Source: Hirschia sp.
GTDB taxonomy: Bacteria; Pseudomonadota; Alphaproteobacteria; Caulobacterales; Hyphomonadaceae
DNA: 64,000 nt
NCBI GenBank assembly: GCA_002709235.1
Contig: PAQI01000008.1
Location: forward strand, 38,593 to 102,592
Direction: 5' to 3'
This document shows, in pieces, positions 14,372 through 19,769 of this stretch. Made by a program: the position numbers and the translations under genes. Below the pieces are notes generated by a model. The model saw only the letters and a program-made list of their open reading frames with translations, searched no databases and had not been told where the DNA came from. Numbering within the stretch: the stretch's first letter is position 1; each line of letters opens with the position of its first letter.

Positions 14372-14998
14372 TCAGTCAGACAATTGCGTAATGCATTCCG
14401 CAATCTGGGCAGGGGTGGTTGAGCCGGGAAAGAAGGTCTTCAGCTTCCAGTCCTTGTCCATCAGATAGAGAATGGATAGGTGATCCATCGTGTAGCCGGC
14501 CGCACTGTCGGGCATATCAACGCGTTTGTAATAAGTTCGAAAGCTCGTGGCGGCGGCTTCGATATCGGCGTTGGAGCCGGTCAGGCCGGTCATGTCTTCG
14601 GGAAATCCATTGCTTTCGACATAAGAGGCCAGCAATTCGGGCGTATCGCGTTCCGGGTCGACACTGATCAATATGGTCCGGGGCTTTTCAACATCATCCG
14701 GCAGCATGTCCAGCGCGGCACCCGCAACGGTGAGGGCAGTCGGGCAGACATCAGGACAATGTGTAAAGCCGAAATAGACCAGCGATTCCCGTCCCTTGAA
14801 ATCCTTCTGGGTCACGCGTTCGCCATCCTGATTGATCAGGGATATCGGCCCGCCAATATTGCCATAGGCCCGTGTCGCGCAGCCAGCGATATCGCCGCCT
14901 GCAATCGCCTCGGAATCGCTTGATGAACCGCCCGAAGAATCGCATGCGGTCATCACGAGTGCGGCGAGAAGGCCGCCAAACAGGGTTCGCTTTTTCAT
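14372..14998 (-). CDS. SCO1/SenC/PrrC family copper chaperone
   Basis: This 208-residue lipoprotein (signal ending MTAC, Cys19) has an SCO domain. Copper ligands are Cys81 and Cys85 in CPDVCP and the distant His173 in MDHLS. SCO proteins deliver copper to the CuA site of cytochrome c oxidase; in Rhodobacter the homologue SenC/PrrC is encoded beside regA and regB. Here it is divergent from regB, with 97 bases between them, which matches that linkage. I chose the ATG at 14998 because the signal peptide begins there; the longer frame upstream is not protein-like. Confidence 0.92.
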   Translation of the reverse strand: MKKRTLFGGLLAALVMTACDSSGGSSSDSEAIAGGDIAGCATRAYGNIGGPISLINQDGERVTQKDFKGRESLVYFGFTHCPDVCPTALTVAGAALDMLPDDVEKPRTILISVDPERDTPELLASYVESNGFPEDMTGLTGSNADIEAAATSFRTYYKRVDMPDSAAGYTMDHLSILYLMDKDWKLKTFFPGSTTPAQIAECITQLSD

Positions 14999-15065
14999 AA
15001 GCGAGATATGCGACAAAGGGCAGATCAGGCAAGGCGCTTCAGAGTCGCAGGGGAAAATACTTGTT

Positions 15066-15080
15066 GCGTCACGGGGTCGC
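15066..15080. promoter_or_regulatory. Possible RegA/ActR-type binding site
   Basis: On the minus strand this reads GCGAC-N5-TGACGC, close to the published RegA pattern GNGRC-N6-NCGC, but the central RTT part does not match. It lies between the divergent sco and regB genes, a sensible place for autoregulation. Weak evidence from one short motif. Confidence 0.3.
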
Positions 15081-15095
15081 TGTAAGCTCTGCGCC

Positions 15096-16508
15096 ATGAC
15101 GCATGTTTCCGAACCAGATTTCATTGCTGCCGAAAAAGTCGCGACAAAGGAAAAGCGTGACGCTTCCTTTTTCGCGTTGGTACCCGAAGGCCTGCTGGGC
15201 GTCGGCTCGGTCTTTGGGCGCACCCGACTGAGAACATTGGTCATGCTGCGCTGGGTGGCTGTGATCGGGCAGGCAGCGGCATTGCTGTTTGTCCATTTCG
15301 GGCTGAATTTCCAGTTACCACTGGCCGCCTGTCTGGCAACCGTGGCGGTATCGGCGTGGCTCAACATCTTCCTGACGGCGGCATTGCCTGAACAAAGGCT
15401 CGCCAGCCAGTTTGAAACCACGGCACAATCGGCCTTTGACATACTGCAACTGGCAACTCTGATCGCCTTGACGGGAGGGTTGGATAACCCGTTTCTCCTG
15501 ATGATCCTGGCTCCAGTGACGGTCGCGGCGTCGCGACTTCGGCCCGGCTATGCATTCTTGTTGGTTCTACTCGCATTATTGTGCATCGGCGTGATGGCGC
15601 TGATTGCGCGGCCCTTGCCCTGGTTTGATGGCAGGGCGCTGCAATTGCCGCACACATATCGGCTGGGGCAGCTGGCAGCAGTCTCCATCGGGCTGGTGTT
15701 CTTTGCGGTCTCTGCCTGGCGAACAGGACGCGATGAGGCGCGGTTGGTGCGAGCGCTTGAGGCGGCCGAAGAAGTATTGTCAAAGGAACAGCGATTGTCT
15801 GCGCTCGGCGCTTTGTCGGCAGCTACAGCGCATGAACTGGGCACGCCCCTGGCCACGATCCACCTTGTTGCCAAGGAAATGGCGCGTGCCACACCAAAGG
15901 ACAGCGAGACCTATGAGGATGTTGCCCTGATCGCTGAGCAGGCAGAGCGTTGCCGCAAGATTCTCAATCAGATCTCCGTGCGTGGCGAGGCGATGGATGC
16001 CGCGCACGCAAAAATGCCTGTGCAGGCGCTGTTGGACGAAACCACTGGTCCGCATCGCGGTCTTGGCATCAAGATCAATGTGTCCTCCGAACCGGCTGAG
16101 GATGTCAGGACCGAAGACCTGCGCCCGCCGGATCTCAGACGCAAACCGGAGATGGTCCACGCCATTGGTGCATTCGTCGAAAATGCGGTGAGTTTTGCCG
16201 AACGTGAGGTGAATGTCGCGGCGCGCTGGAACGAGACCGAATTGCGACTTTACATTTCCGATGACGGGCCCGGATTTTCGCCAAGTGTCATCAGCAAGCT
16301 GGGTGAGCCTTTCCTGTCGCAACGTGGTCCCAATCAGCGCGGGGGCGGGATGGGGCTGGGATTTTTTATCGCAAAGACCCTTCTGGAACGCACCGGCGCG
16401 CGCCTGACGCCGTTCAACCGTGTGCCACCGCAGCGAGGTGCGGTGGTCAAGGTCGTTTGGCCGCTGGCCGAGATTCGCGCCCCGGACGGCTGGAATGAAG
16501 AGGGGTAG
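15096..16508 (+). CDS. regB: Redox-sensing histidine kinase RegB/PrrB/ActS
   Basis: The 470-residue sensor kinase has six predicted membrane helices (about 45-210), the quinone-binding heptapeptide GGLDNPF at 127-133, and the H-box AHELGTPLATI with phospho-His246. The redox-active cysteine corresponding to RegB Cys265 is Cys286 in AERCRKIL. The ATPase part has an N-box (AFVENAVSFA) and a G-box (DDGPGF and GGGMGLGFF). RegB lowers kinase activity when quinones are oxidised. The N-terminus is somewhat longer than in Rhodobacter. regA follows in the same direction, with regB-regA together forming the two-component system. Confidence 0.95.
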   Translation: MTHVSEPDFIAAEKVATKEKRDASFFALVPEGLLGVGSVFGRTRLRTLVMLRWVAVIGQAAALLFVHFGLNFQLPLAACLATVAVSAWLNIFLTAALPEQRLASQFETTAQSAFDILQLATLIALTGGLDNPFLLMILAPVTVAASRLRPGYAFLLVLLALLCIGVMALIARPLPWFDGRALQLPHTYRLGQLAAVSIGLVFFAVSAWRTGRDEARLVRALEAAEEVLSKEQRLSALGALSAATAHELGTPLATIHLVAKEMARATPKDSETYEDVALIAEQAERCRKILNQISVRGEAMDAAHAKMPVQALLDETTGPHRGLGIKINVSSEPAEDVRTEDLRPPDLRRKPEMVHAIGAFVENAVSFAEREVNVAARWNETELRLYISDDGPGFSPSVISKLGEPFLSQRGPNQRGGGMGLGFFIAKTLLERTGARLTPFNRVPPQRGAVVKVVWPLAEIRAPDGWNEEG

Positions 16509-16564
16509 GCCCTTCTTTGCGTTGCGACGTTTTGCAACCCAAGGCGCTTTTCAGGTGGTCTTTT

Positions 16565-16578
16565 TCAACTATAGTTGA
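16565..16578. promoter_or_regulatory. 14-bp perfect palindrome before regA
   Basis: The sequence TCAACTATAGTTGA is a perfect palindrome located 26 bases before the regA ATG and just before its AAGGAG ribosome site. It may be an operator in the regB-regA spacer; the binder is unknown. Confidence 0.4.
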
Positions 16579-16604
16579 GGCAGAATCAAATAAGGAGCTT
16601 CGTG

Positions 16605-17171
16605 ATGGAGCCGCAAATAGAGATGGACGCTCAGGTTCAGGCGCTTGAGGACAAGACGCTGATGGTGCTCGATGATGATGCACCCTTCCGGGGGCGACTG
16701 GCACGCGCACTGACACAGCGTGGCTTCACTGTTTCCGCCGTGGCCACAGTTGAAGAAGCCAAGCAGGTCTCAAAACTCAACCCACCAGCCTTTGCTGTTC
16801 TGGATCTACGCCTTGAAGACGGTTCGGGTCTGGAAGTGGTGGAGGAACTGCACAAGTTTCGTGATGATGCCCATTGTGTGATCCTCACCGGATATGGCTC
16901 TGTTGCAACCGCCGTTGCTGCGGTGAAGGCCGGAGCGGTGGATTATCTCTCCAAGCCGGTTGATGTGGATGATGTGGTGAAAGCCCTGCTGGCGAGCCCG
17001 GCAGATCTTCCCGAGCCACCGGAAAACCCGATGTCGGCAGACCGCGTGCGCTGGGAACACATCCAGCGCGTTTACGAGCTGTGCAATCACAATGTTTCGG
17101 AAACGGCGCGTCGCCTGAACATGCACCGGCGAACACTTCAACGCATTCTGGCCAAACGCGCGCCCCGCTGA
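16605..17171 (+). CDS. regA: Response regulator RegA/PrrA/ActR
   Basis: This 188-residue regulator has a receiver domain with acidic pocket DDD and phospho-Asp67 (AVLDLRL), the switch Thr in ILTGYGS and Lys in LSKPV. A linker rich in proline follows, then the near-invariant C-terminal helix-turn-helix NVSETARRLNMHRRTLQRIL. RegA controls respiration, carbon and nitrogen genes in response to redox state in Alphaproteobacteria. The ATG at 16605 has an AAGGAG site seven bases upstream. It lies 97 bases after regB and ends at a terminator. Confidence 0.97.
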   Translation: MEPQIEMDAQVQALEDKTLMVLDDDAPFRGRLARALTQRGFTVSAVATVEEAKQVSKLNPPAFAVLDLRLEDGSGLEVVEELHKFRDDAHCVILTGYGSVATAVAAVKAGAVDYLSKPVDVDDVVKALLASPADLPEPPENPMSADRVRWEHIQRVYELCNHNVSETARRLNMHRRTLQRILAKRAPR

Positions 17172-17283: not shown

Positions 17284-18054
17284 TTACTGTCCCTTGCGCT
17301 CTTTCACGTCGTCTTCCTGAGCGGCGGCGCGGTCCTCGTCATCAAAGATGATCTCGGCTTCCTCGCCCTTGGCATAGCTGCGGGATTTCTTGGCAAGGCG
17401 ATCCATGGTGACACCAAGCGATCCGGCGGAGACCGCCATGTTCTTCTGCTGGGCGTTGCCGACGCCTTCAGCATCGGAGAAATTGGCAAATTCCGCTCCC
17501 AGAAACACAACCTCCCAGCCACGCTCACGGGCACGATCCAGTGCTGCTTTGGCACCTTCCTTAGTCAGTTCACGGCTGGAATTCTCATGGCCATCCGTCA
17601 TGACAACGATCACGGCCTTTTCCGGCTTGTCGGACTCAGCAGTCGACACGATCCGGCCAATAGCATCGAAAAGCGGGGTCATGCCGCGCGGTGAGGCTTC
17701 GTCATTGGTGACCTTCTTCCAGTCCTTGGCCGATGCACGTTCACGCAGAACGTCATATTTCAGGCCATCCTGGGCATCGAACACGGCGAGAGTGACAGAA
17801 GCGTCGACATCTCCGATCTCGTCTTCTTCCTGGGTTCCCAGACTGGCAGCGTAGACATTGACGGAGTTCAAGGCTTCATCCCAGATCGAGCTCATCGATC
17901 CGGTGCGGTCAAGTAAGATATAAGCGTTCATTTCGGCGTCCCTCGAAATTGGCGCTGGTGCATTCACCAGCTCGGGTTTCATGGCGCAGGCTGGGCCTGC
18001 AAAGGCGGTCATTGCGGCAATTGCACCGACGATCTGTGTAAACATGCGTCTCAT
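17284..18054 (-). CDS. Exported von Willebrand factor A domain protein
   Basis: The 256-residue protein has a signal peptide (cleavage expected after ACA, residue 24) and a single VWA domain. The metal-ion site is visible as D49-R-T-G-S53, Thr126 (GMTPLFDA) and Asp154 (VMTDGHEN). The C-terminal end (about 225-256) is short, very acidic and then basic. VWA domains bind partners through a coordinated Mg2+. Its ATG overlaps the stop of the exported rhodanese gene by four bases, so they are translated together and likely act together in the periplasm. No known bacterial system with this pair is recognised. Confidence 0.85.
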   Translation of the reverse strand: MRRMFTQIVGAIAAMTAFAGPACAMKPELVNAPAPISRDAEMNAYILLDRTGSMSSIWDEALNSVNVYAASLGTQEEDEIGDVDASVTLAVFDAQDGLKYDVLRERASAKDWKKVTNDEASPRGMTPLFDAIGRIVSTAESDKPEKAVIVVMTDGHENSSRELTKEGAKAALDRARERGWEVVFLGAEFANFSDAEGVGNAQQKNMAVSAGSLGVTMDRLAKKSRSYAKGEEAEIIFDDEDRAAAQEDDVKERKGQ

Positions 18055-18650
18055 CTGGTCTGTCCCTCCACTTGATTGATGTCAGTCTTCAATTCGTTCG
18101 GTTTAACGGCGATCCATGTCAGCCTGTCATCGTCAAGCGAGATGCTTTCGCCCAGCTCATAGACATTCTCGTAGCCATAGCCGACGAGGTTGATGAAGGT
18201 GGGGATGTTCAGGGCAAGCGGGGCGCGCTTGATCATCACCGGTGCGATATTGTCTTCGAAATTATTGTTGCAATAGATCAGGATACGGCGACCTTTGTCG
18301 CCCAGCACGCTAGCCAGCTTCTCGTCGGTGAACTCCGAGAAGGGCAGGTTGACTGCACCTTCAATATGTCCTGCTGCAAAATCAGCGGCGGACCGGGTGT
18401 CGAGGATGATGGCGCTCTCTGCCTTGGCCAGATCGAGAAAATCATCCAGCGGAACAAGCCGGGTCACACGATAGCTGGAGACGTCCTGAGTGAGCTTTTC
18501 AAAGCCATCGTAATCCACTTGCGCGCTGACCGGTTCATTGGGTGCGGATTGCTGTATGGGGTTCTGGGCCAGGGCATTGACGCCCGCAAACATGACGGCG
18601 CAAAGCGCGGTAAAAGCGATGGCGGGCATGGATCGACGGATGGGTGACAT
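18051..18650 (-). CDS. Exported rhodanese-like protein
   Basis: This 199-residue protein has a signal peptide (cleavage expected after ALA, about residue 28) and one rhodanese domain. Landmarks are ILDTRSAADFAAGHIEGAVNLPF and the active-site cysteine Cys127 in IYCNNNFEDN. The loop after the cysteine is Asn-rich and acidic, unlike the CxxGxR loop of thiosulfate sulfurtransferases, so the substrate may differ. It is followed directly by the VWA gene (four-base overlap) and preceded at 90 bases by a channel gene on the same strand. Function is unknown; periplasmic sulfur transfer or phosphate-like anion binding are possibilities. Confidence 0.82.
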   Translation of the reverse strand: MSPIRRSMPAIAFTALCAVMFAGVNALAQNPIQQSAPNEPVSAQVDYDGFEKLTQDVSSYRVTRLVPLDDFLDLAKAESAIILDTRSAADFAAGHIEGAVNLPFSEFTDEKLASVLGDKGRRILIYCNNNFEDNIAPVMIKRAPLALNIPTFINLVGYGYENVYELGESISLDDDRLTWIAVKPNELKTDINQVEGQTR

Positions 18651-18740
18651 GGCGTCTTCTCTTCAGTCCTGGCAGCGTTCCAGAACATGAATGACCCATG
18701 AATGCGGCGCGGATAGGCGCGCGAATGTGGTGATTTTGCC

Positions 18741-19769
18741 CTAAATAAGGTTGCCGATCAGGATCGCTGCCACAATGAAGATGTAGATCAGGGTCGAGAT
18801 CAGTGCGGACCTCGGACCGCCCTCGATGAAGCGGGTGGAGGTCTTCTGGTCCGCGACAACGAGGCCGATACTGTCCCGTCTTGTGCCGCGCACGACCATT
18901 CCGATCACTGTCAGGATATAAAGATAAGACAGGATGTAGATCTGATCGAGAAGTGTCAGATAGGACACTTCCGGCAAGCTGCCTGCGGCGGTGAACTGTG
19001 TGGCAACGAGGGTGAGCAGGGCGGTAATGGCCAGTCCGACACGTGCTTCAACATGGCTTGGATCAAGCACCAGGGCCAGCGCGGCGCACAGAATGATCAA
19101 CAAGACGGGCATAAAGCTCTTCACGATGCCGGAGGTGGCGGGCCGTGAGATGGGGATCGTGAATTCAGCTCGTGAATAAGGCGTCGTTTCCGGCTCACTC
19201 AGATCGCCGAAATTGGTGTCATACGGCTTGTCACGAATGATCAGCCGGGGGCGTCCGATATCATAACCGGGCAGGCGGATCTCCTGATTGATCACCAGTG
19301 CGTTCTTGTCAGCGACATATACCAGTTCCTGTGTCGGCAGGTCATTATCCTCGACCGATACGATCAGGTTCTGGCGATCAAAGGGATAATCAGACACATC
19401 GAACTTGTTCGAGAACGCGCCCTGATGGCGGATAATGGCATAATAGGAGCCATCGGGCTGTTCTTGGGGCCTCTCATAGACTTCGGTTTCGACATGGGCC
19501 TCCGGGTCGAAAGTGTTCATGAACTCAAAGGATTTGCTGGGATCGAAATCCGGGTCGGTCCAGCGAAACCAGAGATATAGATCGACGACATAGGAATGCG
19601 TGCGCAGATCTATGGCCTGGATGTCATTGACGAATGCACCGATCACCACACGCTTGGATGAATGGGTGTCCGGGGTGCTCTGTGTTTGGGAGTGCGCGGT
19701 ACCGGGCGCAATGAACAGGCTCGCCAACAGGCCAAGGATTGCGACCAATCCAATCTGGAATTTCGACAA
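18741..19769 (-). CDS. Prokaryotic pentameric ligand-gated ion channel (GLIC/ELIC-like)
   Basis: The 342-residue protein has a signal peptide (cleavage expected after AHS, about residue 27), an extracellular beta-sandwich of about 180 residues and four membrane helices. The family hallmark YPFD is at 128-131, and the M1 proline is Pro221. Helix M2 runs from about 242 to 262. The pore alignment gives Glu241 at -2', Thr at 6' and Leu at 9', the pattern of cation-selective channels such as GLIC. As in other bacterial members, the loop carries no Cys pair. The ligand is not predictable. A 90-base gap separates it from the rhodanese gene in the same direction, and argG is divergent. Confidence 0.92.
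   Translation of the reverse strand: MSKFQIGLVAILGLLASLFIAPGTAHSQTQSTPDTHSSKRVVIGAFVNDIQAIDLRTHSYVVDLYLWFRWTDPDFDPSKSFEFMNTFDPEAHVETEVYERPQEQPDGSYYAIIRHQGAFSNKFDVSDYPFDRQNLIVSVEDNDLPTQELVYVADKNALVINQEIRLPGYDIGRPRLIIRDKPYDTNFGDLSEPETTPYSRAEFTIPISRPATSGIVKSFMPVLLIILCAALALVLDPSHVEARVGLAITALLTLVATQFTAAGSLPEVSYLTLLDQIYILSYLYILTVIGMVVRGTRRDSIGLVVADQKTSTRFIEGGPRSALISTLIYIFIVAAILIGNLI

Follow-up and report, generated by a model that had tools for sequence, protein, structure and literature searches.

A 64,000-nucleotide stretch of Hirschia DNA (the window, i.e., the whole stretch that was analysed) carries a relative of the animal neurotransmitter-gated ion channels, in a marine bacterium, ahead of genes for a rhodanese and a VWA-domain protein. 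The initial annotation proposed that the three products act as one envelope sensing unit. The locus raises the question of whether such a unit exists or whether the channel and the two genes behind it are separate modules that happen to be adjacent. According to PMC4795631, the biological role of pentameric ligand-gated ion channels (pLGICs) had at that time not been established in any single-celled organism. The following features were distinguished:

18741..19769, minus strand: channel gene (pLGIC), 342 aa, TTG start at 19769
18651..18740, minus strand: channel-rhodanese gap of 90 bases with a conserved cis-element inside
18051..18650, minus strand: rhodanese gene, exported-looking, single-domain, 199 aa
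17284..18054, minus strand: VWA-domain protein gene, exported-looking, VWA1 group of Hyphomonadaceae, 256 aa
19770..19946, no strand assigned: intergenic region between the divergent argG and channel genes, in which the rhodanese/VWA motif was not detected ahead of the channel

The three genes and their products

The minus-strand genes follow each other in the order channel (19769-18741), rhodanese (18650-18051) and VWA (18054-17284), just as initially described, and the reported spacing was found as well, with a 90-base gap at 18651-18740 and a 4-base overlap (ATGA) at 18051-18054. The signal peptides ascribed to all three proteins agree with N-termini that look Sec-like (...GTAHS-Q, ...VNALA-Q and ...GPACA-M), as judged by eye from the N-termini without a predictor. 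The same gene order was present in H. maritima (L002/L025, the L025 locus of Hirschia maritima DSM 19733 being the G034 locus), so it is not an accident of assembly; the channel orthologue of this species starts with ATG, whereas the window channel starts with TTG. Opposite-strand open frames overlapping the three genes were disregarded as chance, and a search for repeats across the region gave matches at chance level only. Just downstream (window 14372-17171), a cluster convergent with the VWA gene encodes SCO1/SenC, a PilS-like/RegB-type histidine kinase and a RegA-type response regulator and resembles the usual reg/prr arrangement.

The channel protein matched Pfam Neur_chan_LBD (5e-6, above the cut-off) and Neur_chan_memb (6e-5), and NCBIfam TIGR00860 LIC at 1e-18 as a partial match under its curated cut-off. 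The phmmer comparisons gave about 1e-12 to 1e-13 with GLIC and ELIC chains and 1e-16 with GLIC chimeras. The AlphaFold model (pLDDT 78) consisted of a beta-rich ectodomain and four transmembrane helices with a short M3-M4 loop. It matched PDB pLGICs at a Foldseek E of 2e-20, and more than 1000 PDB chains matched it at E <=0.001, with glycine, GABA-A, GLIC and ELIC receptors at the top. A ligand-binding domain and a four-helix transmembrane domain, found by Pfam, TIGR00860, phmmer, the model and Foldseek, thus place the protein among the pLGICs. It is of the prokaryotic Pro-loop type, without the Cys-loop cysteines, and has an exported-looking N-terminus. The channel is probably cation-selective because the acidic residue before M2 (E241, position -2') has an acidic counterpart in all 14 aligned channel relatives.

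The rhodanese protein matched Pfam Rhodanese (4e-12) and its Cys127, located in a YCNNNF loop, was kept in all 14 copies covering the site; domain and active-site cysteine together make it a rhodanese, which would handle sulfur or reactive thiols. The VWA protein matched Pfam VWA (3e-5) and has an intact MIDAS (D49, T51, S53, T126 and D154), the residues of which were invariant over 44 distinct copies (39 copies for T126 and D154). When the VWA alignment was run as a profile against the PDB, no sequence matched, and the fold was assigned by the model instead, with Z about 16-17 against VWA/I domains. The protein is thus a VWA protein by its modelled fold, with a complete metal site, and presumably uses a metal ion held in the MIDAS to bind other proteins.

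Distribution and gene order

The sample comprised 105 Hyphomonadaceae genomes. The channel query matched nine of them, seven with members of the window channel's subfamily (G000, G034, G091, G097, G098, G102 and G103) and two with distant pLGICs, whereas VWA was present in 97 and rhodanese in 70. Of the 240 Alphaproteobacteria genomes sampled, the other 238 had no match to the VWA profile (E 1e-20), for which the 97 family genomes serve as positive control, and with the same profile the VWA subfamily was absent from 11 pLGIC-bearing genomes of other families.

The expectation that the order of the three genes is kept in relatives did not hold. The full trio occurred only in G000 and G034, i.e., two of the three Hirschia genomes, while the third, G033, had argG, rhodanese and VWA but no channel. 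In the genus g10, a small exported protein is encoded between channel and VWA, at the position that the rhodanese takes in Hirschia. Elsewhere among the genera examined, VWA was divergent from argG or located in another place and rhodanese did not adjoin it; the rhodanese was found at the argG-VWA spot in Hirschia only. Outside the family, the most similar channels (Robiginitomaculum-like, Verrucomicrobia and other MAGs, up to 61% identity) adjoined neither VWA nor rhodanese. Their neighbours varied, with rplQ- and degP-like genes in Robiginitomaculum-like genomes and unrelated genes in Verrucomicrobia and Planctomycetota MAGs.

Several of these outside loci merit a record of their own. The channels of three Verrucomicrobia MAGs (L023, L024 and L026, one of them filed as Akkermansia muciniphila) were 54-58% identical to that of the window, which suggests transfer between phyla or MAG contamination. 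In an Alphaproteobacteria MAG (L027 4018-5921), the channel gene shares 4 bases with the end of the gene upstream of it, which encodes an exported-looking protein of 298 aa. This protein matched no Pfam family and is a further candidate for a channel partner. The distant pLGIC of G032 (L008 98-2484, about 25% identity) lies beside a gene that by eye resembles one for an ABC substrate-binding protein, an arrangement agreeing with described PBP-pLGIC neighbourhoods.

A tie between channel and VWA was more regular than the trio. The channel gene was directly upstream of the VWA operon, in the same orientation, in all six testable Hyphomonadaceae genomes; G097 was left out of this count as its contig ends inside the channel gene, and the contig of G103 ends inside the VWA gene. 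In the VWA tree, the channel-linked copies belonged to one orthologous group, VWA1 (Hirschia and g5/g8/g10, support 90/88), which accompanies the channel in two chromosomal settings, one beside argG (Hirschia) and one near typA (g10). The latter genus also carries VWA2, still beside argG in at least two genomes (G098 and G092). The two paralogues of the family, VWA1 and VWA2 (L080, L148, L156 and window 17284-18054), were apparently ancestrally divergent from argG and stand in tandem in G086; VWA1 of g10 has its locus near typA, behind the small exported protein.

Repeated linkage of channel and VWA1 by chance is unlikely. According to our own estimate, its chance would be about (8/3300)^2 if the two genera represent independent placements, with about 3300 genes per genome. 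The channel tree neither united nor clearly split the Hyphomonadaceae channels (p-AU 0.076 against a single clade), so that a single ancestral placement followed by movement of the block could explain the linkage.

The channel-rhodanese gap

The gap of H. maritima is 93 bases long, and its first 67 bases, counted from the channel stop codon, aligned at about 82% identity with the sequence ahead of the rhodanese gene in G033 (alignment score of 43, shuffled maximum 20). On the argG side of the channel, too, the sequence matched G033 (score of 55, shuffled maximum 21). Because both sides match, G033 is the empty form of the channel locus. The similarity between H. maritima and G033 reaches about 17 bases back into the last channel codons, which hints that the channel was lost in G033 and not gained in the other Hirschia.

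The gap of the window contains the element GCGCCGCATTCATG at 18697-18710 and the 20-mer CGCCTATCCGCGCCGCATTC at 18700-18719, and the site GCGCCGCATTC is part of this conserved element between channel and rhodanese. A motif matrix was trained only on 44 VWA upstream regions, from genera in which VWA does not adjoin rhodanese, and 187 intergenic regions served as controls. Applied to rhodanese upstream regions (non-redundant representatives), it gave an AUC of 0.82-0.94 (p 3e-5 or better), and an AUC of 0.98-0.99 for the regions upstream of the g10 small genes. In the reverse test, a rhodanese-trained motif scored VWA upstream regions with an AUC of 0.68-0.83. The test errs slightly on the conservative side, since the two best-scoring controls (L088 and L080) are apparently VWA regions whose start was called elsewhere. 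When the regions were pooled, the consensus was gcCcC-N5-cGCCnCAaTt, which comprises two GCC half-sites 11 bases apart.

The window site, located 60-69 bases ahead of the rhodanese start, reached the 98.4-99.5th percentile of the strict controls when scored by VWA-trained matrices. The best site fell between the channel and the following gene in each of the six channel loci; that of H. maritima was weaker but in the same register (shuffle p 0.02-0.04; 76.5-98.9th percentile of controls depending on matrix width). The regions upstream of the channel in the window, H. maritima and g10 did not contain the motif. In a scan of the whole window, several matches elsewhere scored similarly or higher, and a motif of about 14 bits is expected to have hundreds of chance matches genome-wide.

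The element, defined by statistics, is a probable promoter or regulator site of the rhodanese-VWA genes. Since it also marks VWA, rhodanese and g10 small genes and channels lack it, rhodanese and VWA probably form their own transcription unit. The proposal of a single unit implied a gap free of promoters; the conserved element makes a separate promoter likely, and the proposal fared better in that no terminator-like structure was found at 18651-18740, where a sigma-70 and terminator scan stayed at chance level. Rhodanese-VWA may thus still be co-transcribed with the channel. We conclude that rhodanese and VWA are probably members of a single family-wide set of exported proteins, undescribed in Hyphomonadaceae to date and governed by a control element of its own, and that the channel lies outside this set.

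Two probable modules and their relation to known systems

The reading that we consider reasonably probable is that the region consists of two adjacent modules, a stand-alone channel and a rhodanese-VWA operon, and not of one unit. The first module would be a homopentameric, probably cation-selective pLGIC of the inner membrane, with its beta-rich domain facing the periplasm, where binding of a small ligand would open the pore; it is patchily distributed and appears dispensable. The second would supply two periplasmic proteins of the family-wide envelope set, transcribed from the element inside the 90-base gap. In this view, the channel resembles an optional addition ahead of a separately controlled gene pair. 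The empty site of G033, where rhodanese and VWA stand without a channel, the unequal distribution (7 versus 97 versus 70 of 105 genomes) and the element common to VWA, rhodanese and g10 small genes and missing upstream of channels argue for this reading. Independent modules do not, however, predict a VWA neighbour in six of six channel loci, and the weak motif of H. maritima and the lack of a terminator-like structure in the gap also speak against it. Read-through from the channel into rhodanese-VWA may occur, and a looser tie of the channel to VWA1 would be compatible with two modules, whereas an obligate three-protein sensor is not indicated.

In a stricter form of the two-module explanation, the channel would be a pure hitchhiker at a tolerant insertion spot upstream of VWA1, functionally unrelated to both neighbours. 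That channels have different neighbours in every other lineage, and that the rhodanese too entered the argG-VWA spot, in Hirschia only, makes this a serious contender, if somewhat short of an even chance; the position of the channel upstream of VWA1 and not VWA2 in two chromosomal settings is harder to reconcile with it.

The same observation is what a functional pair of channel and VWA1 would explain, in which VWA1 docks on the channel ectodomain through the metal of its MIDAS and adjusts channel gating or stability. The choice of a single VWA group in six of six loci despite the presence of VWA2 in g10, the two settings (argG and typA) and the invariant MIDAS residues are consistent with such a pair. 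VWA1 nevertheless occurs without a channel in G033 and most g10 genomes, so that under this explanation it would also have channel-independent work; near channels (56-61% identity) lack VWA in other families, the channel lacks the VWA regulatory element, and one placement with block movement could suffice. The pair is therefore rather unlikely, and slightly more doubtful still is the specific idea that, in Hirschia and one related genus of the Hyphomonadaceae, VWA1 serves a bacterial pLGIC as its periplasmic accessory. Of the sensing unit initially proposed, a channel-VWA link may thus survive through the adjacency in six of six loci, and the coupled trio is unlikely. A three-protein unit that senses or reports the envelope state, with the rhodanese cysteine as redox or persulfide reporter, is very improbable, as the order common to two Hirschia species, the three exported-looking N-termini and the invariant Cys127 are outweighed by the lack of linkage between rhodanese and VWA in the other genera examined, by the absence of rhodanese beside g10 channels and by the conserved element that divides the unit at the gap.

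The literature searched contained no described channel-rhodanese-VWA trio and no VWA neighbour of a pLGIC; to our knowledge, a VWA neighbour of a bacterial pLGIC is new. The repeated position of the channel beside a VWA protein is worth testing, and a culturable Hirschia with the channel, a channel-less sister genome and the linked VWA gene lend themselves to a natural comparison and to clean testing by gene removal.

Among known channels, GLIC and ELIC, the latter responding to primary amines (PMC3119659), share with the window channel the fold, the length, the short M3-M4 loop, the YPFD Pro-loop and the acidic -2' residue before M2. The ELIC response makes amines the first candidate ligands to consider for the window channel. 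GLIC and ELIC differ from it in sequence (about 20-23% identity in structural alignments), and GLIC-like proton gating found no specific support for the window channel, as the position of the GLIC proton sensor E35 is not conserved and is occupied by H58. Described gene neighbours of bacterial pLGICs encode periplasmic PBP-II or Cache proteins (PMC549065). The window likewise has a pLGIC gene beside a gene for an exported stand-alone protein, but its VWA and rhodanese partners are not small-molecule binders, and PMC549065 mentions neither domain.

For the VWA protein, McaA of Magnetospirillum is another alphaproteobacterial periplasmic VWA protein with a MIDAS, which is required for its function (PMC9512821); unlike the window protein, it also spans the membrane and extends into the cytoplasm, and its role is to position magnetosomes. 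The phage VWA family PHROG 7371 is similar over nearly the whole VWA length (E 1.5e-36; 213 phage records match), and the exported bacterial protein and a phage VWA protein may share ancestry, although identity is below 60% and members of the Hyphomonadaceae subfamily begin with a signal sequence. A functional parallel would be the VWA domain of alpha2-delta of voltage-gated calcium channels, the MIDAS of which is needed to raise calcium currents (PMC5043047). Both have an extracytoplasmic VWA domain with a complete MIDAS and are associated with a channel, the association in the window being gene adjacency. Alpha2-delta serves another channel superfamily, and the window VWA has neither Cache domains nor a membrane anchor and is of a type mostly found without a channel. 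Consistent co-occurrence, as in an accessory subunit, was not observed (VWA in 97 and the channel subfamily in 7 of 105 genomes), which separates VWA1 from alpha2-delta as a class. VWA1 may nevertheless work like alpha2-delta, and would then be a partner of a new type, a stand-alone protein associated with a bacterial pLGIC.
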